DNA of 39,485 nucleotides. It comes from Opitutales bacterium (GTDB taxonomy: Bacteria > Verrucomicrobiota > Verrucomicrobiia > Opitutales > T3Sed10-336). Position numbers and translations under genes: made by a program. The DNA lies in assembly GCA_007130045.1 (NCBI GenBank), contig SLTG01000024.1, positions 1 through 39,485 of the forward strand, read 5' to 3'. Of the stretch, positions 7,644 to 38,595 are shown one piece after another. The first letter of the stretch is position 1. The number at the start of each line of letters is the position of its first letter. The notes under the pieces are model-generated. The model was given only the letters and a program-made list of their open reading frames with translations, had not been told where the DNA came from and searched no databases.

Positions 7644-8885
7644 TCAATCTCCGTTGCACGCGGACGGGTCAAACAGCCGGTTTTCGGACAGGCAACGGGC
7701 GAGTGCATCCATCAGGATGTGAAACGAATCGGACCCTTGAAGCTGTTGATGGGCTGTGAGCAGCCGGGTGCTGAGATTGCCTGTGTTGAGAATGCGTTCG
7801 ATCACTGCTGCGGCCGGAGCCGGTAGAGATCCTCCGTTTTTCTCGAATACGTGCCGCCAGAATCCGCCGGCGGTTCCAACCGATTCCGCAAGACCAAACG
7901 CCTCGGGGATTTCGGAAAGTACAATCGGCGCCCGGGTCCCGGACCGGATCACCTCGTCGAGCTGCCGTCGTCTTTCCCGGGCGGATGAATGCCGCACCCA
8001 TTGCTCGAGGTCGCTTTCCCGGCCTTCAACGAGGTGGCGGAGTGCCGCGATGAAGAACTGCGCAAGCGCAAGGTCGGCCGCGGGGCATTCCTGGACGTCA
8101 AGCAGCCGTACCTCGATCGCGTTTCGGTCGAAGCGGGCAATCGCGCCCCGCGAGTTCAGCCATTCATGCCTGATAATACCCTCCGGATCAACTTCGGCCG
8201 TTTCCCGGAACATCGGCTGGAGAATCTTCTCCTCGTACTCGGCGCGCGAAAGAACCGCCTCCGGAATCACCTCTCCGGTGATCGATGGAAACAGGTCCTG
8301 GTTGTGCTCGTAAATCTCGAGCCTTGTGTCGGTCAGGCCCGTAACGACCCTTTCCCTGAACGGGCTGCCCGCGGTGAGGGCGGGCATGAGTGGCAGAAGG
8401 AGGATTACCGCGGAATGGAGAAGGGCGAACTCGTGGTCGCCGGCGAAGGGAAGGTTGATGTGGGAACTCTGAAGATTCAGCCAGCCGTGACTCCTGCAGT
8501 TGAAAATGGAATCGTAAAGGGAGTAGATTTCCCGTCCCTCGTGCGGCCAGGTGAACGATTCCGTGGCGGGGTTCATTGCCGGGTGCATAGGCCCGGGCAG
8601 GAGGCGGGCGCCGCGCGACTCAAGCTGCCTGTTGATTCGTGTTATCGCCTCTACGAACTTTTCCTCCTGGCGCTTGAAATCCGACGTCGGCGACGCGCTT
8701 TTGAGTTCGATGACGTGCGCGGCGAGCTCGTTGGACAGTCCGCAGCCGCCGACTTCGCATTCGTTGAGGGGAGCGCCGCAGAAGTCGGATATCAATTTGT
8801 CCGCGATCGGGGCCACGCTGCAATCGGCATTCCGGACAATCATATATTCCAGTTCGATGCCGAATTTCTCAAAAAGGCGCAGCAC
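7644..8885 (-). CDS. GCS2-type carboxylate-amine ligase (glutamate-cysteine-ligase family)
   Basis: This 413-residue protein belongs to the GCS2 glutamate-cysteine-ligase-like family (COG2170 type), ATP-dependent enzymes that join a carboxylate, usually glutamate, to an amine. The N-terminal strand KFGIELEYMIV (7-17) carries the metal-binding acidic pair. SHINLPFAG, TDTRLEIYEHNQDLFPSITG and NAIEVRLLDVQECP are typical core segments. The start is GTG at 8885, only 3 bases after the TGA of the ATP-grasp gene. It is the last gene of a three-gene cassette (peptidase, ATP-grasp, GCS2). Pairing of two amide-bond-forming enzymes with a peptidase suggests a short peptide or amide product. Cysteine need not be the acceptor, and no glutathione synthetase of the classical type is nearby. 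Confidence 0.82.
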   Translation of the reverse strand: MLRLFEKFGIELEYMIVRNADCSVAPIADKLISDFCGAPLNECEVGGCGLSNELAAHVIELKSASPTSDFKRQEEKFVEAITRINRQLESRGARLLPGPMHPAMNPATESFTWPHEGREIYSLYDSIFNCRSHGWLNLQSSHINLPFAGDHEFALLHSAVILLLPLMPALTAGSPFRERVVTGLTDTRLEIYEHNQDLFPSITGEVIPEAVLSRAEYEEKILQPMFRETAEVDPEGIIRHEWLNSRGAIARFDRNAIEVRLLDVQECPAADLALAQFFIAALRHLVEGRESDLEQWVRHSSARERRRQLDEVIRSGTRAPIVLSEIPEAFGLAESVGTAGGFWRHVFEKNGGSLPAPAAAVIERILNTGNLSTRLLTAHQQLQGSDSFHILMDALARCLSENRLFDPSACNGD

Positions 8886-8888
8886 GGA

Positions 8889-10382
8889 TCAACCCCCTTC
8901 CTTCTGGGCCGGCGCCTTGTTTCTTTCGATACGTCGCAGGAATTCATGCATGATCCGCCTGTATAAATCCCCGTTGAGAAACGAATCTTCGACGCCGGTT
9001 TCAATGTTCGGGTTGTCGTTGACCTCGATTACGTAGATGTCTTCGCCCCGTTGTTTCAAGTCCACCCCATAGAGTCCCTTGCCGATCAAAGCAGCCGCGG
9101 CGAGCGCGCATTGCATAACCTCCGGAGGAGCATCGCCCAAGGCAATCGCATCGAACCCGCCCTCCTCGAAGCGGCCTTCTTTTCCGTGATTGTAGATTTG
9201 CCAGTGTTCGCCGGTCATGTAGTAGCGGCAGACGAACAGAGGCTCACCGTTGAGAATGCCAACCCGCCAGTCGAATTCGGTGGGAAGAAACTCCTGGGCA
9301 AGGAGCAGATCGGAGGATCTCAGCAGGCGGTGAGCGGTCCTTTGGAGTTCCCGGCGGTCGTCCACTTTGAATACACCCAATGAAAACGCGCTGTCCGGGA
9401 TTTTGACCACCAGAGGAAAACCAAGGGCGGCGGCGACCTGGTCGATGTTCTTGGCGTAAAGTATCGCCGTCCTCGGAGTTCGGATACGGTTCTTCCGAAG
9501 GAGCTCGTGCAGGAAAACCTTGTTGCAACAGCGCCGGATCGAGTCAGGGTCGTCGATCACGGCCATACCTTCGCGCTGGGCTTTCTCGGCGAACCGGTAG
9601 GTGTGGCCGGTCATGGATGTCGTTTCCCGAATGAACAGGGCGTCGAATTCCAGGAGACGCGGGTACTCCGTGCGGGTGATCAACTCGACGTTGATACCGA
9701 CGTCCCGTCCTGCCCGGACAAAGGACCGAAGGGCCTTCTTATCGGAGGGCGGATGTTTCTCGTGAGGGTCGTGCAGGATGGCGAGATCGAAGCCGAAGCC
9801 GCTGCTGCCGCGACTGCGTCCGCTGCTCCAGCGCTTGCTGAGAAATCCGTCCACGGCCTCGCGCACTTTGTCGAGGTGGTTGACGGGAACTTCGCTGAGT
9901 CCAAGAGGTTTGAGTGACTTCATTTCCCATCCCCGTTCGCGGTGGCGGGCGAACTCCACGCGAAAGAGGGGGCAGGGAAACAGGGAGAAGAGCTGTTGGG
10001 CGAGCCGGGCATGACGTTCGGCGAGATTCAGGCCGAAATAGACGCTCAGCGTGAAGGTTGGCTGGGTGATTCGGGCGAGACTCTTTTGAATCAATGAATC
10101 CAGTTCGTCTATTTCTTCCGCGTAAATGCGCCTGCTGGAAAGGTTGTGAAGGGTGCGGGCGGAAGCCATGACCCGGTGTCGGCGCGCCTCGGCGAGGAGC
10201 GAGATGAAGTAGCCGGTGCTCAGACTGTGACGATGACGGCACAGATTGATGATCTTGTATCCGGAAGTCGTGTAAGCGTCGTTGACAAAAAACTCTTCGG
10301 CGGAAACGACGTCGTAGCCCGTCCACTCGGGTGACCAGTCTTTCAAGTCGTCGACGACAATCAGTTTTCGGGATGGCTTCAC
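8889..10382 (-). CDS. RimK-like ATP-grasp ligase with RLAN-type N-terminal region
   Basis: This 497-residue protein combines a long N-terminal region (~1-200) typical of RLAN-type RimK relatives with a C-terminal ATP-grasp domain (~285-490). ATP-grasp landmarks are CNKVFLHELLRKNRI (from ~286), FPLVVKIPDSAFSLGVF (~322-338), LAQEFLPTEFDWRVGILNGE (~361-380) and the metal-binding IEVNDNPNIETGVE (~452-465). The enzyme should activate a carboxylate as acyl-phosphate and couple it to an amine, as RimK and cyanophycin or peptide ligases do. I place the start at GTG 10382, overlapping the stop of the peptidase gene by 4 bases (GTGA). The earlier in-frame ATG at 10478 would overlap the peptidase gene by 100 bases. 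The GCS2 ligase follows after 3 bases. Confidence 0.85.
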   Translation of the reverse strand: MKPSRKLIVVDDLKDWSPEWTGYDVVSAEEFFVNDAYTTSGYKIINLCRHRHSLSTGYFISLLAEARRHRVMASARTLHNLSSRRIYAEEIDELDSLIQKSLARITQPTFTLSVYFGLNLAERHARLAQQLFSLFPCPLFRVEFARHRERGWEMKSLKPLGLSEVPVNHLDKVREAVDGFLSKRWSSGRSRGSSGFGFDLAILHDPHEKHPPSDKKALRSFVRAGRDVGINVELITRTEYPRLLEFDALFIRETTSMTGHTYRFAEKAQREGMAVIDDPDSIRRCCNKVFLHELLRKNRIRTPRTAILYAKNIDQVAAALGFPLVVKIPDSAFSLGVFKVDDRRELQRTAHRLLRSSDLLLAQEFLPTEFDWRVGILNGEPLFVCRYYMTGEHWQIYNHGKEGRFEEGGFDAIALGDAPPEVMQCALAAAALIGKGLYGVDLKQRGEDIYVIEVNDNPNIETGVEDSFLNGDLYRRIMHEFLRRIERNKAPAQKEGG

Positions 10383-11077
10383 GGCTCGGGGAGGGAAACG
10401 GTTAACAGATTCGCGTCGTACGTGACAATCCCAAGCATGACGGAATTGATGAACCGATGGGTGTTCACCCGGTAGCAACCGCGCGGGTTGAAAGGATTTC
10501 CCTTGTAGGGATCCGATATCACGATCTCGTCGGTTTCCTCCTCGAAGCCGTTGACGACGACAAAATGGCCGACCGGGAAACCGGCGACGTCGTCGGTTTG
10601 GCCGTCGGGAAGCTCGCGAACCGTTTCGTAAAGATAGGTGGCGCTCAGTCCGGTCAGAATCGGGGTGCCTTTGGAGAGGAGGCGATGAACGAGCCGTGGA
10701 GTGAGGTCGTGAAAACGGAGACGCCCGCCCAGGCGGAGGAAAGCGATATAGGATTCATGGGTTTCGACCAGCTTCGGGTCATCGAGAAGAGGAATGCGAC
10801 GCTGCAGCTTCTCGATCATTTCATCGGGTTCGAGATTCCACCATGTCGGATCGAAGATCTTCAGGTTGTAGGAGTAAGTGGTGGCCCGAAAGCCCTGCTG
10901 CAGGGCGTGCAGGGCGAGATGCACGGATACGGTGCCGCCTTCCTCGTCCCGTTCGATCTCATCGATCATTCTCTCAAGCGAGTAGTCCCTCCGATAAAAC
11001 CGATAGATCGCATGTAGGCAGGTGGGGCCGCAGGTCGATTCTGTCGGCTGGGCGCGCATCTCGAGAGGAATGTGCAT
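10379..11077 (-). CDS. C39-like papain-fold cysteine peptidase
   Basis: A 232-residue cytoplasmic protein (no signal peptide or membrane helix) with a papain-like catalytic set: Gln10, Cys16 in TESTCGPTCLHAIY, His171 in VGHFVVVNGFEE and Asp189 in VISDPYKGN. This matches C39-type or related peptidases, which cleave after double-glycine leaders or act on small peptides. It lacks the ABC transporter part of bacteriocin exporters. It is first in the operon, overlapping the ATP-grasp gene by 4 bases. It may trim, transfer or hydrolyse the peptide made by the two ligases. A -10-like TAAAAT at 11101-11096 gives a leader of roughly 12 bases; no good -35 is visible. Confidence 0.75.
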   Translation of the reverse strand: MHIPLEMRAQPTESTCGPTCLHAIYRFYRRDYSLERMIDEIERDEEGGTVSVHLALHALQQGFRATTYSYNLKIFDPTWWNLEPDEMIEKLQRRIPLLDDPKLVETHESYIAFLRLGGRLRFHDLTPRLVHRLLSKGTPILTGLSATYLYETVRELPDGQTDDVAGFPVGHFVVVNGFEEETDEIVISDPYKGNPFNPRGCYRVNTHRFINSVMLGIVTYDANLLTVSLPEP

Positions 11078-12173: not shown

Positions 12174-14444
12174 TCACATGTCGGCCAGGCGAAAGTCGAT
12201 TTGGCGTTTGAAGCGGTCCACGCGTTCGGTCACCACTTCCACGGTCTGACCGACCTCGAATTTTCTCTTTCTGCGTTTTCCAACGAGCTTGTTTCCGTCT
12301 CCGTGAAGCAGGTAATGATCGTCGCTCATCGTTGAGATGTGAACGAGCCCGAAGGTTTGGGCTTCGACCAGTTCGACGAACATCCCGTGATTCTTGATAT
12401 CCGTTATCGCCGCCTTGAAACGGGTTTTCTCCTTCCTGGACAGCTCGCGATCGAAGAACTCCAGCTGCTTGATTTTATTGTGTTCGCGTTCGGCCTCGGT
12501 GCTGTTCTGTTCGGTGATCGAGATGTGCTCGGCGATTCCTTCGAGGTCGGCCTGCGTGTACTTCCGCGTGCGGTGAAGCGGGTTTCGCTTCTGATGGCGG
12601 CTGAGGAAGTTTTCGAAAATCCGGTGGACGACGAAGTCAGCGTAACGCCGGATCGGGGAGGTGAAGTGAGTGTAGTTCCGCTTGGCAAGCCCGTAGTGAC
12701 CCTTTGGCTCGGCAAGGTATTTCGCCTGCTTCAGACTGCGGAGGAACTGAATCCGGTGGATGTAGCCCTGCGGATGTTCCTTGATCTTTGTGAGCATCTT
12801 CGTGATCTCCGGCTTGCTGGTGAGGTCGCCAACCCGGATGCCGTTGGTCGCCAGGTATTCGCGGAATTCGTTCAACCTGTCCTCGTCCGGTTTGTCGTGT
12901 ACCCGGTAAACGGCGGGAACGGCGTGGTCCTTGAGTATCTTTGCGATCGCTTCGTTGGCCAGAAGCATGTACTCTTCGATCAACTGATGGCTTTCATCGT
13001 ATTCGATAAGCTCCATGCGGTCGGCGTAGCCGTTTTCATCGACGAAGATTTTGACTTCGGGCATGTCGAGATCGAGGCTGCCGCTGCGCATTCGCTTTTG
13101 CCTCAGGCTGCCGGCAATGCTCCATAATCCGCGGATCGAGGACTGAAGCTCTTCCAGTTCCGGGTCGGACAGCGAGTCGAGTGCCCGCCCGGTCGAACCG
13201 GTCTGGTGGGCCGGGGGAAGAGGGAGCTGGCGCGCCTTGTTGAGATCGTCCTCCTTCAGCAGCGTGTACGCCTGCCGGTACGTCAGCCGCTTGCGGCTGC
13301 GAATGACGCTGTTGGCGAATTCAACGTGATGAATTTTGCTCCTGGATAAAGTAACGAGGACGCTTTTCGTCAGGCGGTCCTCGCCCTCTTTCAGACTGCA
13401 GAGGCCGTTGGAGAGCTTGTCGGGAAGCATGGGGACCACCGTCCCGATCAGGTAGGTCGAATTGCCGCGGCGGCGGGCCTCGACGTCAAGGGCGGTGCCC
13501 GGCGCGACGTATGCCGCCACATCGGCGATGTGAATTCCCACGCGGTACCGGCCCTGGGAAAGGTTCTCGATCGATAGCGCGTCGTCGAAATCCTTCGAGT
13601 CGTCCGGATCGATCGTAAACGTGATGTTGTCGCGCAGGTCGAGGCGTCCATTGAGGTCCTTTTCCTTCACGCGATCCGGCAGGGAGGAAACCTCCTTGAA
13701 TACCTCCTTCGGAAACGTCGGGTCGAGGTCGAACTTGCGGAAAATCGCTTTGAGTTCGGCGCCGGGTTCATGGGTTCTGCCCAGGACTTCGACCAGGTCG
13801 CCTTCCGGATTGACGTGTCGCTGTTTCCATTCAATCAGTTTGATCACAACCTTGTCGCCGACCTTGGGAGTCGGTTTGATCGACGTTTTCCGCGGGTCGG
13901 GAACGATGATGTCGTTAACCAGACGCGGGTCGTCCGGAATCACGTAATGAAAGAGCTTGGCTTTCTCCAGGGTTCCCGTGATCAGTGTGCGGCCGCGTTC
14001 GAGAATACGGATCACCCGGCCGAAGACCTCTTTGTCCTTTTCGCCTTTGGATCCGCGGCCTGAGGAGCGGCGACGATGCCGGCTGGGTGCGTCCATCAGC
14101 CGTACCAGCACCCGGTCACGGTGCATGGCGACCCAGGTGTCTTCGGCGCTTATCCTGATCGGGGCCTCGTCCTTTTTGTCGAGATGCGGGTCGGGAATAA
14201 GGATCGCGGCGCCGCTCTGCCGGAAGTGGATCGTGCCGCTTACGAGGTTGGCATCCTGTGGAATACAGAGGCGGTTCTTCTTGATTCGTGCGATGTACCC
14301 TTTTGTCAGAAGGGTTTCAATGACCTCGTCAAACTCTTGTTCCTCCTTCCGGGTCAATTTGAGCGCTTGCCCCAATTCGTTCTTTCGAGCCGGAACGTAG
14401 TCGGTGCGGCGCATGTATTGGATGATTCTGTCTCTTAAGAGCAT
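12174..14444 (-). CDS. rnr: Ribonuclease R
   Basis: A 756-residue 3'-5' exoribonuclease of the RNB family, acting on structured RNA. A winged-helix start (RDRIIQYMRRTDYVPARKNE) and two cold-shock domains precede the RNB domain. Its catalytic cluster DPDDSKDFDD carries the four aspartates (equivalent to 272, 278, 280 and 281 of the E. coli enzyme). A C-terminal S1 domain (GMFVELVEAQTFGLVHIS) and a basic stretch (KRRKRKFE) follow. I prefer the ATG at 14444 (MLLRDRIIQ); an ATG at 14462 adds six residues. Neither has a clear Shine-Dalgarno, and the promoter at 14450-14478 would start transcription on the chosen ATG. Catalytic residues are intact. Confidence 0.93.
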   Translation of the reverse strand: MLLRDRIIQYMRRTDYVPARKNELGQALKLTRKEEQEFDEVIETLLTKGYIARIKKNRLCIPQDANLVSGTIHFRQSGAAILIPDPHLDKKDEAPIRISAEDTWVAMHRDRVLVRLMDAPSRHRRRSSGRGSKGEKDKEVFGRVIRILERGRTLITGTLEKAKLFHYVIPDDPRLVNDIIVPDPRKTSIKPTPKVGDKVVIKLIEWKQRHVNPEGDLVEVLGRTHEPGAELKAIFRKFDLDPTFPKEVFKEVSSLPDRVKEKDLNGRLDLRDNITFTIDPDDSKDFDDALSIENLSQGRYRVGIHIADVAAYVAPGTALDVEARRRGNSTYLIGTVVPMLPDKLSNGLCSLKEGEDRLTKSVLVTLSRSKIHHVEFANSVIRSRKRLTYRQAYTLLKEDDLNKARQLPLPPAHQTGSTGRALDSLSDPELEELQSSIRGLWSIAGSLRQKRMRSGSLDLDMPEVKIFVDENGYADRMELIEYDESHQLIEEYMLLANEAIAKILKDHAVPAVYRVHDKPDEDRLNEFREYLATNGIRVGDLTSKPEITKMLTKIKEHPQGYIHRIQFLRSLKQAKYLAEPKGHYGLAKRNYTHFTSPIRRYADFVVHRIFENFLSRHQKRNPLHRTRKYTQADLEGIAEHISITEQNSTEAEREHNKIKQLEFFDRELSRKEKTRFKAAITDIKNHGMFVELVEAQTFGLVHISTMSDDHYLLHGDGNKLVGKRRKRKFEVGQTVEVVTERVDRFKRQIDFRLADM

Positions 14445-14449
14445 CCCAC

Positions 14450-14478
14450 TTGATACGCACATTTACCGGCAAGTTCAA
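14450..14478 (-). promoter_or_regulatory. Candidate rnr promoter, predicted leaderless
   Basis: On the minus strand, TTGAAC (14478-14473) and TATCAA (14455-14450) are 17 bases apart, four of six matches each. The ATG at 14444 begins six bases after the -10, the usual distance to the transcription start. Confidence 0.3.
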
Positions 14479-24671: not shown

Positions 24672-24675
<4 letters not shown>

Positions 24676-25868
24676 AATGCGGCGCTTTCAACAGGGAGCT
24701 CGCGAATATTCCATGGCAGTCCGTGTTGATTTAGGCGTTCCATGAACGGGTCGGGATCGAGTTGTTCCATGTTGAAAATCCCGTCCTTTCGCCAGGTCCC
24801 GTCCAACATGAGCATGGCGCCGATCATCGCCGGAACTCCGGTTGTGTAGGAGACCGCCTGCGATTTCACTTTCCGGTAGCACTCCTGATGGTCGCAGACG
24901 TTGTAGATGTGGATCTTCTTCGGCCGCCCCTCCTTCACTCCCTGGATCATGCAACCGATGTTGGTCTTTCCTTTCGTGCGCGGGCCGAGGGAGGCGGGAT
25001 CGGGAAGCACCGATTTGAGGAATTGGAGAGGAACGATCTTCCTTCCCTCGAACTCGACCGGTTCGATGGATGTCATCCCGACGTTCCGGAGCACGTTGAG
25101 GTGAGTCAGATATTTCTCGGAGAACGTCATCCAAAAACGGATACGCTTGAGACCTTCGATGTGCCTGACCAGGGATTCCATTTCCTCGTGATAAAGGAGG
25201 TGGATGTCTTTCGGCCCGATCTCGGGGAAGTCGTAAACTTCTTTAAGCTCCAGAGGTGTGGTTGTGACCCATTTTCCGTTTTCCCAATAGCGACCGTTGG
25301 CCGTGATTTCCCGAATGTTGATTTCCGGATTGAAGTTGGTGGCAAAGGGATAACCGTGATCGCCCGCGTTGGCGTCGAGGATGTCGACGTAGTGAATCTC
25401 GTCGAAGTAATGTTTCTGCGCGTACGCGCAGAACACGTTGGTCACCCCGGGGTCGAACCCGGAACCCAGGAGGCCCATGATGCCGGCTTGCTTGAACGGC
25501 TCGTCGTACGGCCACTGCCATTCGTAGGTGAAACTCGGCTCGTCGGGAGGTTCGTAACTCGCGGTGTCCAGGTAATCGACTTTTGCATCCAGGCAGGCGT
25601 CCATGATAGTGAGGTCCTGGTAGGGAAGGGCGACGTTGATCACAACGCCGGGTTTGAATCGACGGATCAGTTCGACGAGTTCGTCCTTGTTGTCGGCGTC
25701 GACCCGCGCCGTTTCGATCGGACGGTCGAGATCGCGCGCGATCGCGTCGCATTTCTCGAGCGTGCGGCTTGCCAGACAGATTTCGGAGAATACCTCCGGA
25801 TTCTGAACGCATTTTCGGACGACGACATTTCCGACGCCCCCGGCGCCAATAATCAGTACTTTACCCAT
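24672..25868 (-). CDS. Carboxynorspermidine dehydrogenase (saccharopine-dehydrogenase-like)
   Basis: A 398-residue NAD(P)-dependent enzyme of the saccharopine/carboxynorspermidine dehydrogenase family. It condenses aspartate semialdehyde with a diamine and reduces the imine to carboxy(nor)spermidine. The N-terminal Rossmann motif is VLIIGAGGVGNVVVRKC. DYLDTASYEPPDEPSFTYEW, GFDPGVTNVFCAYAQKHYFD and YTTGVPAMIGAMLMLDGTW are conserved blocks. Its last codons overlap the nspC start, so the pair forms one translational unit. The HTH gene ends 57 bases upstream on the same strand. Confidence 0.9.
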
Positions 25869-31592: not shown

Positions 31593-33746
31593 TTAGCCTG
31601 GCGTCGACTCGTCTTCCGTCTTGCTCGCCTCCATCTCTGCGAGTGCGGCCTTGCGACTGAGGCGGACGCGCCCTCTTTCGTCGATCCCGATGCACTTGAC
31701 CCACATTTCGTCGCCGAGCTTTGCGACGTCTTCCGTCCTCTTGACGCGGAATTCGGCCAGTTCGGAAATGTGGACGAGACCTTCCTTCCCGGGCAGAACC
31801 TCCACAAAGCAGCCGAATTCTTTCACGCTGCGCACGACGCCGCGGTAGATTTTGTCGGGAATGATTTCCGCCGAGATCAGTTCCACTTCGGCAACGGCTT
31901 TCTCCATGGCTTCCTTGTTGTTGCTGTAGATGAAGACCTTCCCGCTGTCGTCGTCCGAGATGTCGATGGTCGCTCCAGACAGTTCGGTGATGCGGCGGAT
32001 ATTCTTTCCGCCCGGGCCGATCAGTGCGCCGATCTTCTCGGGGTCGATCTGGAGAGTCGTGATCCGCGGGGCGTACTGATTCATTTCCTCGCGCGGTTCG
32101 GAAATCGTTTCGAGCATCCTCTTGAGGATCTTCTGGCGGGCGTCGCGCGCCTCCAGAATCGCTTTGCGGGCGATATCGAACGGAAGACCGTCGATCTTCA
32201 GGTCGAGCTGGAAACCGGTGATTCCCTCGCTGGTGCCGGCGAGCTTGAAATCCATATCGCCGAAATGATCTTCGGCGCCAAGAATGTCCGTCAGCGTCTT
32301 GTATTCGTCGATCTTGCCGCTCTCGTTCTTTTTGCTGACCAGGCCGACGGAGATCCCCGCGACCGGTGCGATGATCGGCACGCCTGCGTCCATGAGCGAG
32401 AGACAGCCGCCGCAGATCGACGCCATCGAGGTGGAGCCGTTCGATTCCATGATTTCGGCGGTGATCCGGATCGAATACGGGAAGATGTCTTCGGCGGGAA
32501 TGACCGCGAGAAGCGAACGCTCCGCAAGGGCGCCGTGGCCGATTTCACGCCGGCCCGGGCCCATGATGCGTCCGGTTTCACCGACCGAATAGTGGGGGAA
32601 GTTGTAGTGAAGGATAAAAGACTTGGTCGTCGCGCCGCCGGTGAGAGCGTCGAGCGATTGGGACTCGCGCGCGGCGGCGAGGGTGGTCATGACCAGAGCC
32701 TGCGTCTCGCCGCGATTGAACAGGGCGGATCCGTGGACACGCGGCAGCACGCCGACTTCGCATCCGATTTCGCGAAGTTCATCGGTGCCCCGGCCGTCCA
32801 CGCGCTTTCCGTGATCAAGAATGTTGCTGCGATAGACTTCCTCCTGAATTTCCTCAAACGCGATGTCGATATCGTGATCTTCGAATCCGTCTTCGCCGAG
32901 TTCCTTCCTGACGAGTTCGGTCGTTTCCTCGATGACGGTGCCTACGGCCTTTTCGCGGGCCTGTTTTTTGTCGTTGAAAATGACCGCGGCCACCTTTTCG
33001 ACGGCGTTGCGCCGAACGATCTCGACGACTTCGGGTTTCGCGGTGACCAGTTCGAACTCGCGCTTGGGTTTGCCGGCTTTTTCCGCGAGATCCTTGATGG
33101 CCCGGATAATCGGCTGAATTGCCTGTTGAGCGAATTCGAGAGCCTCGATAAACCGCTCTTCGGGCAACTGGTCGGCGCTGCCTTCGATCATGAGCATCTC
33201 GGATTCGGTACCGACGTGGATGAGGTCCAGGGTTGACTCGTATTGCTGTTCGATCGTCGGGTTGACGACGAATTCGCCGTTGATTTCGCCAACCCTGACC
33301 GCGGCGATCGGGCCGTTCCAGGGAATGTCGGAAATCATCAGGGCGGCCGAGGCGCCGTTGATCATCAGAATGTCGGGTTCGTTCAGTGAGTCCGTGGAGA
33401 GGAGCATCCCGGCGACCTGCACTTCGTTCAGAAAACCTTTCGGAAACAGGGGACGAAGCGGTCGGTCGGTCAGGCGGCAGGTCAGAATCTCCTTTTCGGA
33501 GGGGCGTCCCTCACGCTTGAAGTAGCCGCCCGGAAAACGTCCGGCGGCGGCGAATTTCTCGCGGTAATCGACGGTGAGAGGGAAAAAGTCCTGGCCGGGT
33601 CGCAGGGTTTCGGCTGCGGTTGCCGCGATGAACAGAGTGGTTTCGCCGAGGCTGACCGTTACCGAGCCATTGGCTTGTTTGGCGATAGTGCCGGTCGAAA
33701 GGGTGATCCCCAACTCGTCGATGGTAATGTTGTGTTTCTGCTTCAT
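31593..33746 (-). CDS. pnp: Polyribonucleotide nucleotidyltransferase (PNPase)
   Basis: A 717-residue phosphorolytic 3'-5' exoribonuclease. Two RNase PH-like domains are visible: the first from [20 protein letters not shown] and [20 protein letters not shown], the second from [20 protein letters not shown] with [20 protein letters not shown]. They are joined by an all-alpha linker. A KH domain ([20 protein letters not shown]) and a C-terminal S1 domain ([19 protein letters not shown]) follow. The start is ATG 33746; 22 further upstream codons are open but not conserved. A perfect TATAAT at 33848-33843 predicts a leader of ~90 bases, in addition to read-through from rpsO. The rpsO-pnp order is widespread. 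Confidence 0.95.
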
Positions 33747-33842
33747 GGATGTGTGATACTTGATGCTGATTTTTATTTCGATCACAGCCCTCGACCGCTG
33801 GAAAATGAGCATACGTGAATACCGGGCGCGCCGGTCCCCCGT

Positions 33843-34502: not shown

Positions 34503-35801
34503 CTACGCGGCGTCCTTCTTGGTGCTCTTCTGGGCCTTCTTCAGGCGCGGTTTCCTTCTGCCCTCGACGACGGCCCGGTCGATGATGACCTCGGAAACGT
34601 CCGCACGGTCGGGAAGTTCGTACATGCTTTCAAGCATCAGCTTCTCCATGATCGAGCGCAGGGCACGGGCGCCGGTTTTCAGCTCTTTCGCTCGAACGGC
34701 GATCGCCTGGATAGCGTCCCGGGTAAACCGGAGGGAGACGCCGTCCATCGCGAACAGTTTGCCGTACTGCTTGACCAGCGAGTTTTTCGTCTGCTGGAGG
34801 ATTTTTTCCAGGTCCGCCAATGAGAGCTCGTCCAGAACCGAGATGACGGGAAGGCGACCGATGAATTCAGGGATCATACCGAAGCGCACCAGGTCTTCCG
34901 GCGCGATTTTCTTCATAATCTGCTCGCCGTGCGGCCCGTCGTCCGACGAACCCTGCTTGGCGCCGTAACCGAGGACGTTGGAGCCTTCGCGGCGTTTAAT
35001 GATGTCGTCGAGACCCACGAAGGCGCCTCCGCAGATAAAGAGGATGTTCGAGGTATCGATCTGGATGTACTCCTGGTTCGGGTGCTTGCGTCCTCCCTGA
35101 GGGGGCACGTTGCAGACGGTGCCTTCCAGGATCTTGAGAAGCGCCTGCTGAACGCCCTCGCCGGAAACGTCGCGGGTGATCGAGACATTGTCGGTCTTGC
35201 GGCCGATTTTGTCGATTTCGTCGACGTAGATGATGCCGGATTCGGCCTTCTTCACGTCGTAGTTGGCGGACTGAAGGAGGCGAAGAACGATGTTCTCGAC
35301 GTCTTCACCGACGTAGCCGGATTCGGTCAGTGTGGTGGCGTCGGCGATTGCGAAAGGAACTTCGAGCGTGGTCGCCAGCGTCCGCGCGAGGAGCGTTTTC
35401 CCGGAACCGGTGGGGCCGATCAGGAGAATATTGCTCTTTTCCACTTCGACGTCGGAGAACTCCGCGGACATGGACGGCGTCTTCCTCGGGCCGGAGCGGG
35501 ATCTGAAAAGCAGTCGTTTGTAGTGATTGTATACGGCGACGGACAGAACCTTTTTTGCCTGTTGCTGCCCGATAATGAAATCATCCAGGACCTCCTTGAT
35601 CCGCGCGGGCTTGAGAAGATTGAAGCCGGGTTGCGTCCCGGAGGTGTTGGCATTGGGTTGCGTTTCCCGGTCTATGATCGTCTTGCACACATTGACGCAG
35701 GAATCGCAGATGTAAACGGCCGGCCCCGCGATCAGCTTCTTAACTTCGTTCTGCGACTTACCGCAGAACGAGCAGAGGGTGAGTTTGGATGATTTGGCCA
35801 T
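34503..35801 (-). CDS. clpX: ClpX, ATP-binding unfoldase of ClpXP protease
   Basis: A 432-residue AAA+ unfoldase. An N-terminal zinc finger (Cys10, 13, 32 and 35) is followed by Walker A GPTGSGKT (129-136), pore loop [11 protein letters not shown], Walker [12 protein letters not shown] and the arginine-containing [14 protein letters not shown] block. Two details are unusual: an insertion of about 18 residues ([18 protein letters not shown]) between the box-II region and Walker A, and a ClpP-docking loop reading NVLGYGAK where most ClpX have IGF. The start is ATG 35801, 16 bases after clpP. A lysine/alanine-rich tail ([12 protein letters not shown]) ends the protein. Confidence 0.95.
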
Positions 35802-35817
35802 AAGTGAAAGTGGTGTA

Positions 35818-36459
35818 TCAGACCGCGCTCTTAAGCTCCCGAGCTTCGTGCTTGTCTTCCACGACATTATCCACGATGCCGTAGGTTTTGGCTTCTTCGG
35901 CGGTCATGAAATAGTCGCGGTCGGAGTCCTTCTCGATCTGTTCGACGGATTTTCCGGTGTGCCTTGCGAGAACTTCGTTGAGGGTTTGTTTCCAACGGAG
36001 AACCTCCCTGGCCTGGATCGAGATGTCGGAAGTCTGGCCGGTCGCGTAGCCGGAAGGTTGATGGATCATGACCCGGCTGTTCGGCAGGGCGAACCGTTTG
36101 CCCTTTGTCCCGGCCGCGAGGAGGAGGGTGCCCATGCTGGCGGCCTGGCCGATGCAGTAAGTGACCACGTCGCAGCTCAGAAAGTTAATGGTGTCGTAAA
36201 TCGCCATCCCGCCGGTGACGACGCCGCCCGGGGAATTGATATAGACGTTGATGTCCTTCTTCGAGTCCTCCATTTGCAGAAACAGCATCTGGGCGATCAC
36301 CACGTTCGCCACACCGTCGTCGATCGGCGTGCTGATGAATACGATCCGGTCTTTGAGGAGCCGGCTGTAAATGTCCATGCTCCGCTCGCCGCGCGCGGTG
36401 TTCTCGGTAATGACCGGGACGTAGTAATTGCTTACGGGTGTTGCCTTTGAGTGTTTCAT
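35818..36459 (-). CDS. clpP: ClpP, proteolytic subunit
   Basis: A 213-residue serine protease. The catalytic triad is Ser108 in [11 protein letters not shown], His133 in VMIHQPSG and Asp182 in [27 protein letters not shown] forms the substrate strand and oxyanion region. Its ATG overlaps the tig stop by 4 bases (ATGA) and clpX follows after 16 bases, so tig-clpP-clpX is one operon of protein-quality-control genes. The N-terminal ~26 residues are likely the propeptide/axial-loop region. Residues are intact for an active tetradecamer. Confidence 0.96.
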
Positions 36460-37766
36460 TTATTGCTGTCTGAAAGGTTAGCCTGCTCGAGGAGGAAATC
36501 AAGTGTCTTGTCGAAAAGGATATTCTGCTGCATGAACCGCACCCGGTTTTCGTCCTTTTGCAGTTCCTTGACGATCTGGTCGGGTTTGGCGCCGGTACTC
36601 ATCGCCTCCTGCATGATGAAGCGCTGGGCGTCTTCGTTGTCCATTTTGACGTTTTCCTTTTCGGCGATCTTAAGCAGAATCATGCGAAGCTTGACCCGTC
36701 GCACCGCGGCGCGGCGGGCCTCCTCGTAAAGCTTCTCCTTGTGCTGTTCGAGTTCCTCCTCGCGAACGTCCTGCCGGATGTTGCGTTCGATGATCTGGCG
36801 GAGGATGGATTGGGTCTCCGCGTCGACGGCGGTTTCGGGCACCTCGAATTCGATCCTCTCAAGGAGGGCGTCGCTGAGTTGCTGTCGCTGCTTGCCGCGC
36901 CCCTCGGACTCCTTTCTCTGCGCAAGTTCCGTGCGGATCTGTTCCTTGAGCTGCTCGACCGATTCCACGTTGAGCCCCTTGAGAAACTCCTCATTCAGTT
37001 CGGGGAGTTTCTTTTCCCTGACCTCGATCATCTCGACGGCGTAAACCGCCTGTTTGCCGGCGAGGTCGGCCTCCTGAAAGTCATCGGGAAAGGTGACCTG
37101 AATATCCTTTTTGTCGCCGGCTTTGAGTCCGGCAAGCTGCTCGGCGAACCCCGGGATTCCGGCGTCCGCGCTGCCCACCTCTTCCCATGTGGCGGACTGA
37201 GTCCCGAATATCGGACGACTCGGAAGGAGATCCGCGAGCTTCTCTTCGCCGATCCTGCCCTCGTAAGAGAGTTTGACGTAGTCCCCGGTCCTCGCTTCGC
37301 GTTCCACGACACTGAAGTCGGCGCGTTGGTCGCGGATCGTCTGGATCGTGCTTTCGATTTCCTCGTCTTTCACTTCGGTATCCGGCTTCTCCACCGGGAT
37401 ACCCTTGTATTCGGGAAGGTTGAATTCGGGATGAACGTCGACCACGAAGGTGAGTTCGTTGTCCGCGCCGCGGTTGATGTCGTCGCCTTTCAGCTCTATC
37501 AGGTTGAAAACCTGGATCTCGGTTTCCTTGAGAGCGTTCCGGTAGGCGGAGGAGACGACCTTCTTTTTCAATTCCTCACTGATATCGCCGGCGAACCGTT
37601 GCGAAACCATGTTTCTGGGCGCGCGACCCGGGCGAAAACCGGGGATTCGGGCCTGCTTGGAGAACTCGTTCAGCACCGAATCGTGTTCCTTTTCGATTTC
37701 GTCCGCGCTCACGTTGACTACGAGCGCTTTTCTTGTCGCGTTTATGTCGTCGGTTCTGATATTCAC
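36456..37766 (-). CDS. tig: Trigger factor (ribosome-associated chaperone)
   Basis: A ~436-residue trigger factor that binds at the ribosome exit tunnel. The N-terminal domain shows [15 protein letters not shown], the ribosome-binding signature. A central FKBP-type PPIase region follows ([15 protein letters not shown] to the [19 protein letters not shown] block), then a long charged helical C-terminal domain. I place the start at GTG 37766 ([16 protein letters not shown]), where family similarity begins. The frame is open 76 codons further upstream but includes the predicted promoter. No Shine-Dalgarno is obvious. An inverted repeat lies just before the start. Confidence 0.92.
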
Positions 37767-37770
37767 TACT

Positions 37771-37826
37771 GTTCGTTGTATGAGATTAAACGAACCATTT
37801 GAAGGCACGGACGTGCGGGCGGTCAA
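37771..37826 (-). promoter_or_regulatory. tig-clpPX promoter and leader inverted repeat
   Basis: On the minus strand, TTGACC (37826-37821), 18 bases, TCAAAT (37802-37797) predict a start near 37790. The inverted repeat GTTCGTT (37771-37777) / AACGAAC (37789-37795), with an 11-base centre, covers this start and ends 5 bases before the GTG. It could be an operator or a leader stem-loop. Confidence 0.4.
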
Positions 37827-37905
37827 TGACATAATCCGGAATCGCGGCGCCGCCGCCGGGGGCGTTCCATTTGTGGCGTGAACGCCGCGGGTTACGTGGG
37901 AAAAC

Positions 37906-38595
37906 ATGACGTCCTGCAATTCGCGAATTCGCCCCTCCGTCCCGCTGGGCGACCGCACGGGGAGATATCTCGTTCTCGACGCCGGCTTGCCCAACGTTCA
38001 CGCCGGCGTGCTGTGCGGAGAAGGTTGGCTTGCGCTGGAGAGCCGCAGGGCCCCGGCGGTCGAGTCGCTGTTTGAATGCGTGGAAAAATGTTTGGACGGC
38101 TCGGGAACGCGGCTGGCGGATCTTGCAGGGTACCTTTACTGCGAAGGTCCGGGGTCGATCCTCGGGATGCGGATCGCATCGATGGCGATTAGAAGCTGGC
38201 GGCGATTCGAGCCCGGGAAAGTGACGCCCTGTTACAGCTACCGCAACCTGGAAATCCTGGCGGCCGCGCTTCTCGAGGACGGGACTAAACCGCCGTTCGC
38301 ATTGTTTTCCGACGCGCGACGCGGACATTGGAACTACCTGGAAGTCGGCGAACAGGGGTGTTGTCAGCCTGTGCGGCGGGTGACGGCGGATGAACTTGAA
38401 TCGTCGGGCGTGCCGTTGTGGCAGGCGGAGGAACCGCCGGCGTCCCGGGCGGCGCCCCTTCCCGCACGCGTGCTTTCGTACGAGCTCGCGGAGGCGGCGC
38501 CCTGGTTCTACCGTTACCCGTTGCTCCGCGAATCCGGGGAGCCCGAACCCTGGGTCATCCGGGAGCCGGAGTACCGGAAGTGGAAGCAGCCGTGA
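37906..38595 (+). CDS. TsaB-like protein (t6A tRNA modification partner)
   Basis: A 229-residue protein resembling TsaB (YeaZ), the partner of TsaD in making threonylcarbamoyladenosine on tRNA. The N-terminal actin-fold strand YLVLDAGLPNVHAGVLCGEG and the segment LYCEGPGSILGMRIASMAIR match the TsaB GPGSFTGLRIG signature. The C-terminal part is divergent, so identification rests on the N-terminal half. It is divergent from tig. Its last 41 bases overlap the end of the phosphatase gene on the opposite strand. The ATG at 37906 is the only early start in frame before the conserved strand. Confidence 0.65.
   Translation: MTSCNSRIRPSVPLGDRTGRYLVLDAGLPNVHAGVLCGEGWLALESRRAPAVESLFECVEKCLDGSGTRLADLAGYLYCEGPGSILGMRIASMAIRSWRRFEPGKVTPCYSYRNLEILAAALLEDGTKPPFALFSDARRGHWNYLEVGEQGCCQPVRRVTADELESSGVPLWQAEEPPASRAAPLPARVLSYELAEAAPWFYRYPLLRESGEPEPWVIREPEYRKWKQP

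Follow-up and report, generated by a model that had tools for sequence, protein, structure and literature searches.

What is made, or broken down, by a peptidase and two amide-forming ligases whose genes are packed into a single transcription unit? We addressed this question for a locus on contig SLTG01000024.1 of an Opitutales bacterium (GenBank assembly GCA_007130045.1); the window, that is the whole stretch of 39,485 nucleotides that we analysed, belongs to a 3.4-Mb genome. Open reading frames (ORFs) and Pfam matches define three genes on its minus strand: a C39/papain-fold cysteine peptidase or transpeptidase of 232 residues (positions 10379..11077, ATG start), an RLAN plus RimK-type ATP-grasp carboxylate-amine ligase of 497 residues (8889..10382, GTG start), and a carboxylate-amine ligase of the GCS2 (glutamine-synthetase) fold of 413 residues (7644..8885, GTG start; PF04107, E 1.7e-24). 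The peptidase stop and the ATP-grasp start overlap in the four bases GTGA (10379..10382), and three bases separate the ATP-grasp stop from the GCS2 start in TGA-TCC-GTG (8883..8891), just as a first-pass annotation of this DNA had described the ORFs and their junctions. The three genes form one operon. Our reading, to which we give a probability of about one half, is that they belong to a system, usually of four genes, that may build and recycle, within the cell, a short glutamate-containing peptide or amide assembled without the ribosome; what suggests it is a single transcription unit in which two enzymes that form amides are usually joined by two that cleave them.

We scanned 84,980 genomes for the ATP-grasp protein and found at least 566 relatives. 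The best 80 of these, a selection that favours near relatives, were combined with loci from relatives of the host, and profile searches of both sets found peptidase, ATP-grasp and GCS2 in that order at most loci. Many carrier genomes are incomplete metagenome-assembled genomes (MAGs), and gene starts were assigned by rule. Within the RLAN subfamily of the window, peptidase, ATP-grasp and GCS2 genes all lie on one strand in 45 of the 50 loci whose flanking DNA is long enough to tell (the flanked loci), with median gaps of 5.5 nt between peptidase and ATP-grasp and 2 nt between ATP-grasp and GCS2. The nearest loci are in Verrucomicrobiota MAGs (Opitutia, Puniceicoccaceae; 80, 78 and 65% ATP-grasp identity), and the cassette GCS2 occurs in 5 of 145 Verrucomicrobiota genomes, all five of which hold the three genes together. 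The gene order that had been noticed at a single locus is therefore kept in relatives. The cassette extends across at least 10 bacterial phyla, carriers being titled Verrucomicrobiota, Kiritimatiellota, Planctomycetota, Bacteroidota, Balneolota, Pseudomonadota, Thermodesulfobacteriota, Spirochaetota, Nitrospinota, Hydrogenedentota, Krumholzibacteriota and Tectimicrobiota; such MAG titles are fallible, as a 'Synechococcaceae' contig of a sister RLAN subfamily groups with Competibacteraceae. Ratios of nonsynonymous to synonymous substitution (dN/dS) between the window and same-family genomes are 0.07-0.13 for the peptidase and the ATP-grasp and 0.17-0.19 for GCS2, and by this sequence measure the cassette genes are under purifying selection. 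Low dN/dS, a gene order recurring across phyla and the confident AlphaFold2 folds of the peptidase and GCS2 indicate that the cassette is not a chance arrangement. A few loci are looser: about 0.95 and 1.3 kb lie between ATP-grasp and GCS2 in two of them (L002:7471-8422, L073:7480-8782), and about 2 kb between peptidase and ATP-grasp in two Planctomycetota loci (L061:4116-5997, L068:3690-6000), where inserted genes may sit.

Clustering of the neighbouring ORFs at 49 three-gene loci revealed one further same-strand family, FGase, the only gene family widely shared by the cassette neighbourhoods; the remaining clusters consist of antisense ORFs or are present in at most 4 loci. FGase is a protein of about 240 residues with the N-formylglutamate amidohydrolase fold (PF05013). 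Its catalytic residues are invariant across homologues and its closest solved structure is the uncharacterised Atu2144. The gene directly follows GCS2 in 31 of the 41 loci with room for it (median gap 4 nt), and in Legionella adelaidensis a RimK family protein, a glutamate-cysteine ligase family protein and an N-formylglutamate amidohydrolase are annotated side by side. Pairwise protein distances of the cassette parts correlate across 31 four-gene loci (r 0.64-0.86), to which shared species history also contributes. In the window, the gene after GCS2 is hflX and no FGase is linked. The FGase gene of this lineage is displaced and lies elsewhere in the genome: the host's only PF05013 gene, on another contig, is of the cassette type (G000:C44:28862-29563, corresponding to about 1405-2136 on the minus strand of locus L102). 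It scores 215.6 bits against a cassette profile that excludes it (273.8 bits with alignment A3, which includes the host FGase itself) versus 66.8 bits against the general PF05013 profile, and unlinked cassette-type copies are also found in genomes of the same genus. Cassette-type FGase occurs in only 3 of the 145 Verrucomicrobiota genomes, all three among the five with the cassette GCS2, a co-occurrence expected by chance at about 2e-5 (hypergeometric, 10/497,640, calculated by hand; the five genomes represent five families).

The peptidase matches the Pfam families Peptidase_C39_2 (E 5.5e-10) and C39 (E 8.8e-10). Since its catalytic residues C16, H171 and D189 are invariant, together with Q10, in 40 aligned homologues, its original description as a C39-like enzyme with intact Cys/His/Asp holds; Q10 is likely the oxyanion-hole Gln. 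The AlphaFold2 model of the peptidase (mean predicted local distance difference test score (pLDDT) 93) superimposes on C39 domains with Z 15-17.6 (at Z 17.6, root-mean-square deviation (rmsd) 1.9 over 134 residues), on the primitive phytochelatin synthase Alr0975 with Z 17.0 (rmsd 2.4 over 160 residues) and on the pseudomurein endoisopeptidase PeiR with Z 16.2 (rmsd 2.2 over 146 residues). These scores lie so close together that the fold cannot tell a peptidase from a transpeptidase. Catalytic Gln, Cys, His and Asp together with the fold place the enzyme among the C39/papain-fold cysteine peptidases, and its match to phytochelatin synthase-like transpeptidases is one of fold alone, in a predicted model. 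The catalytic region begins at residue 10 with no N-terminal extension ahead of the catalytic motif. A double-glycine bacteriocin leader peptidase was considered and set aside: the fold is alike, and no neighbouring transporter was found, nor, in a crude search within 600 nt of the cassette ends, any conserved small ORF. None of the three cassette proteins shows an obvious secretion signal when the sequences are read by eye, without a signal-peptide program, and the pathway is therefore likely cytoplasmic.

In the second enzyme, the RLAN domain spans residues 30-175 (9858..10295, minus strand; PF14401, E 1.8e-38, 132 bits against a Pfam cut-off of 25) and the RimK-like ATP-grasp domain residues 287-462 (8997..9524, minus strand; PF08443, E 8.5e-10, 39 bits against 21), which together identify an RLAN-RimK ATP-grasp ligase. 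D441, E453 and N455, likely metal or ATP residues, are invariant in 24 homologues. Its closest solved relatives are RimK and LysX, and NCBIfam offers no equivalog: the protein lies far under the cut-offs for RimK, LysX and glutathione synthase, reaching 62.7 bits against the rimK_fam subfamily cut-off of 143.4. The RimK S6--L-glutamate ligase equivalog was rejected at 19.4 bits against a cut-off of 331.

Where relatives of this ligase lack GCS2, the neighbouring gene mostly encodes a GNAT acetyltransferase, which in many cases carries a fused C39-like DUF3335 domain. A tree of 88 RLAN ATP-grasps requires two changes of partner type, compared with 21 when labels are shuffled, and a long-branch sequence (L089) is involved in one of the two. 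The tree, which came from a rapid search and several of whose branches are weak, thus appears to split GCS2- and GNAT-partnered subfamilies almost perfectly; the Verrucomicrobia lineage of the window forms a deep separate branch beside the other GCS2-partnered ATP-grasps. Cassette-type FGase was found in none of 14 GNAT-type genomes; distant FGases, scoring about 100 bits, occur in some of them. The sister RLAN ATP-grasp with its upstream GNAT-C39 (DUF3335) fusion or GNAT alone (L006:4819-5943, L030:4784-5998, L018:5491-5976) makes up a separate, uncharacterised system of two genes. Two sequences titled Synechococcaceae (L016) and Phycisphaerales (L007) fall within Candidatus Competibacteraceae on the tree and are probably binning errors.

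The third enzyme scores 87 bits against the PF04107 gathering score of 21, and its GxExE signature (G9-E11-E13), reported for carboxylate-amine ligases of the GCS2 fold (PMC2588565), is invariant in 37 homologues. Its AlphaFold2 model (mean pLDDT 93) matches YbdK-type enzymes with Z 39, plant glutamate-cysteine ligase (GCL) with Z 34 and Dop/PafA with about Z 19-20, so that score, signature and fold agree on GCS2 membership. With the ligase motifs of both ATP-grasp and GCS2 invariant, the pairing of two amide-forming enzymes stands. The best NCBIfam model for this protein is the YbdK family carboxylate-amine ligase (48.8 bits against 176.4), and the glutamate-cysteine ligase models do not exceed 25.7 bits, their cut-offs being 249 or higher; with the protein far under every one of these cut-offs, an ordinary glutamate-cysteine ligase was discarded. 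The protein is also the sole GCS2 of the host genome, in which no glutathione synthetase exceeds the cut-off (the PF02955 search gives 20.2 bits against 23, in a 1129-residue ORF) and the cassette accordingly has no such partner. Across cassette genomes, a strong glutathione synthetase (>180 bits) is present in 7 of 25 and absent from the other 18. Ordinary glutathione synthesis was therefore rejected, and a cassette found both with and without glutathione synthetase is not the glutathione pathway, nor does it simply substitute for that pathway. Judged by profile scores, its product is not glutathione; the first-pass annotation had named an ordinary ligase feeding glutathione as the finding that would overturn its reading, and at the level of sequence that finding did not appear.

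Taken together, these features suggest the following scheme. The RimK-type ATP-grasp enzyme, with glutamate as the probable added residue, would extend a carboxylate by an ordinary peptide bond, and the GCS2 enzyme would use a side-chain (gamma) carboxylate for a second amide. The C39-fold and FGase-fold enzymes would cleave these amides, although the peptidase may perhaps transfer instead, so that the product could be both built up and broken down. Substrates, step order and reversibility are the parts of the scheme that we infer. Several observations weigh against it: 5 of the 50 flanked loci are missing one gene or two from the trio; among the 16 cassette genomes without a linked FGase, 12 yielded no copy elsewhere, some of which MAG incompleteness may explain; fold similarity does not establish specificity; and RimK relatives also modify proteins, so that a protein substrate is conceivable. 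The same 12 of 16 genomes rule out FGase as an invariant fourth component, and the hydrolytic arm is consequently not always a pair. The original proposal of a ligase and peptidase pathway thus survives in part. The conserved unit, the intact ligase motifs, the lack of a precursor and the distinction from glutathione all speak for it, but it missed FGase and overlooked the split of the ATP-grasp subfamily, whose sister branch works with GNAT/C39 proteins. More tentatively, and with less conviction than we attach to a glutamyl peptide or amide at this locus, the cassette may make a widespread intracellular glutamyl metabolite or reversible tag with a degradation arm, in which case RLAN ligases would form the core both of gamma-glutamyl-capping pathways with GCS2 and FGase and of acetyl-capping pathways with GNAT.

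The main rival is reversible protein tagging, in which the ATP-grasp would add glutamate or a short tag, GCS2 would extend or branch it, and peptidase and FGase would remove it. Among solved structures, RimK and LysX come nearest to the ATP-grasp domain, the GCS2 model also matches Dop/PafA, genes for ligases and hydrolases are paired, and RimB strips the glutamates added by RimK (PMC12239564). We nevertheless regard tagging as rather unlikely, because GCS2 fits YbdK and plant GCL far better than PafA/Dop, and no ribosomal, proteasome or regulator gene is widely linked; nor did a crude search within 600 nt of the cassette ends reveal a conserved Pup-like or other short ORF, as would be expected of a Pup ligase. 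The folds can also be read as a thiol route resembling glutathione synthesis, with GCS2 making gamma-Glu-Cys, the ATP-grasp adding a third residue and the papain-fold enzyme acting like Alr0975. GCS2, ATP-grasp and papain-like folds are the same set as in cyanobacterial glutathione metabolism plus Alr0975, the peptidase model aligns with Alr0975 over 160 residues, and the host has no glutathione synthetase. This route is doubtful: the strong synthetase in 7 of 25 cassette genomes excludes simple replacement, GCS2 is far under all glutamate-cysteine ligase cut-offs, and the ATP-grasp, which bears an additional RLAN domain, is of the RimK and not the GshB type.

Just as doubtful, in our judgement, is a compatible-solute or storage dipeptide akin to N-acetylglutaminylglutamine amide (NAGGN), of which the GNAT-paired sister subfamily would make an N-acetylated version. 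The partnership of sister RLAN ligases with GNAT or GNAT-C39 invites the comparison, as the NAGGN operon of P. aeruginosa encodes a peptide-bond-forming GNAT-family protein and a peptidase (PMC8070244). Several cassette genomes come from halophiles or bear sample names of a soda-lake type, whereas the record titles of other carriers point to groundwater, sludge or soil, and the neighbourhoods do not widely share an osmotic regulator or a transporter. Many of the MAG sample names (CSSed, T3Sed, PLM, DLM, GEM) belong to what we take to be a soda-lake series. The cassette is also not of the NAGGN kind, an AsnO-type amidotransferase and the GNAT/ATP-grasp protein Ngg being absent from the three genes and not shared by the neighbourhoods. 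A ribosomal, graspetide-like pathway, in which the C39 peptidase would process a precursor that is very short or encoded away from the cassette, would draw on a combination of ATP-grasp and C39-type peptidase that occurs in ribosomal peptide clusters, and the peptidase model does match bacteriocin-processing C39 domains. It is highly improbable here. Among short ORFs within 600 nt of the cassette ends, none was common beyond close relatives in a crude blastp-short search, which very short or divergent peptides could escape. The overlapping or abutting junctions leave no room for a precursor within the cassette, the closest ligases are RimK and LysX, and no transporter is present. A graspetide cluster was accordingly rejected for want of a linked precursor, and the earlier statement that neither a transporter nor a precursor peptide gene adjoins the cassette was borne out.

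How does this cassette relate to characterized systems? RimK-RimB, the ribosomal S6 glutamylation pair of Pseudomonas, likewise joins a RimK-type ATP-grasp ligase to a hydrolase and is a precedent for glutamate chains on which a ligase is opposed by a hydrolase (PMC12239564); the cassette differs in its extra RLAN domain, its additional GCS2 ligase and its C39 cysteine peptidase and FGase-fold enzyme in place of the retropepsin RimB. The RloABC operon of P. aeruginosa (retropepsin, inactive transglutaminase membrane protein, ATP-grasp) shares an ATP-grasp and a peptidase in one operon, but the cassette has neither membrane protein nor retropepsin and contains GCS2 and usually FGase. The glutathione pathway with Alr0975 uses GCS2, ATP-grasp and papain folds on gamma-glutamyl peptides; the cassette, by contrast, has a distant GCS2 subfamily and a RimK-type rather than GshB-type ATP-grasp, and is in some genomes accompanied by a true glutathione synthetase. 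The NAGGN operon (AsnO, Ngg, peptidase) sets a precedent for combining a peptidase gene with non-ribosomal dipeptide synthesis (PMC8070244), a combination that the cassette would share, and GNAT recurs in the sister RLAN subfamily; unlike that operon, the cassette contains GCS2 and FGase and no asparagine-synthase-type enzyme. Pupylation (PafA/Dop) shares a glutamine-synthetase-fold ligase related to GCS2, whereas the cassette lacks Pup and proteasome and its GCS2 fits YbdK/GCL better.

No description of the four-gene set was found in the literature searched, which did not include the 2009 amidoligase survey of Iyer et al. That survey reportedly named RLAN and catalogued neighbourhoods of ATP-grasp, GCS2 and peptidase genes, and for this reason the kind of cassette is probably known yet uncharacterised. 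New here are FGase as a frequent fourth component with a displaced host copy, the division of RLAN ligases by partner, and the comparison of the cassette with glutathione synthesis. The tight conservation of a ligase and hydrolase set in at least 10 phyla suggests that a nameless metabolite or modification is important to very different bacteria. Carriers that can be grown include Pontibacter, Rhodohalobacter and Sabulibacter; with the fourth enzyme and the RLAN partner split, they make the product directly searchable by metabolomics.

In a Pfam scan of the window, the cassette is flanked by hflX, a divergent metallophosphatase and RNase R (12174-14462), and promoter and terminator scans gave nothing useful at its start. 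The wider setting is an ordinary housekeeping region, with PNPase at 31593-33812 and consecutive genes for trigger factor, ClpP and ClpX at 34503-37994 on the minus strand. A saccharopine-dehydrogenase-family gene (24672-25868, minus strand) possibly encodes a carboxynorspermidine synthase of a polyamine route; polyamines are conceivable amine substrates of amidoligases.

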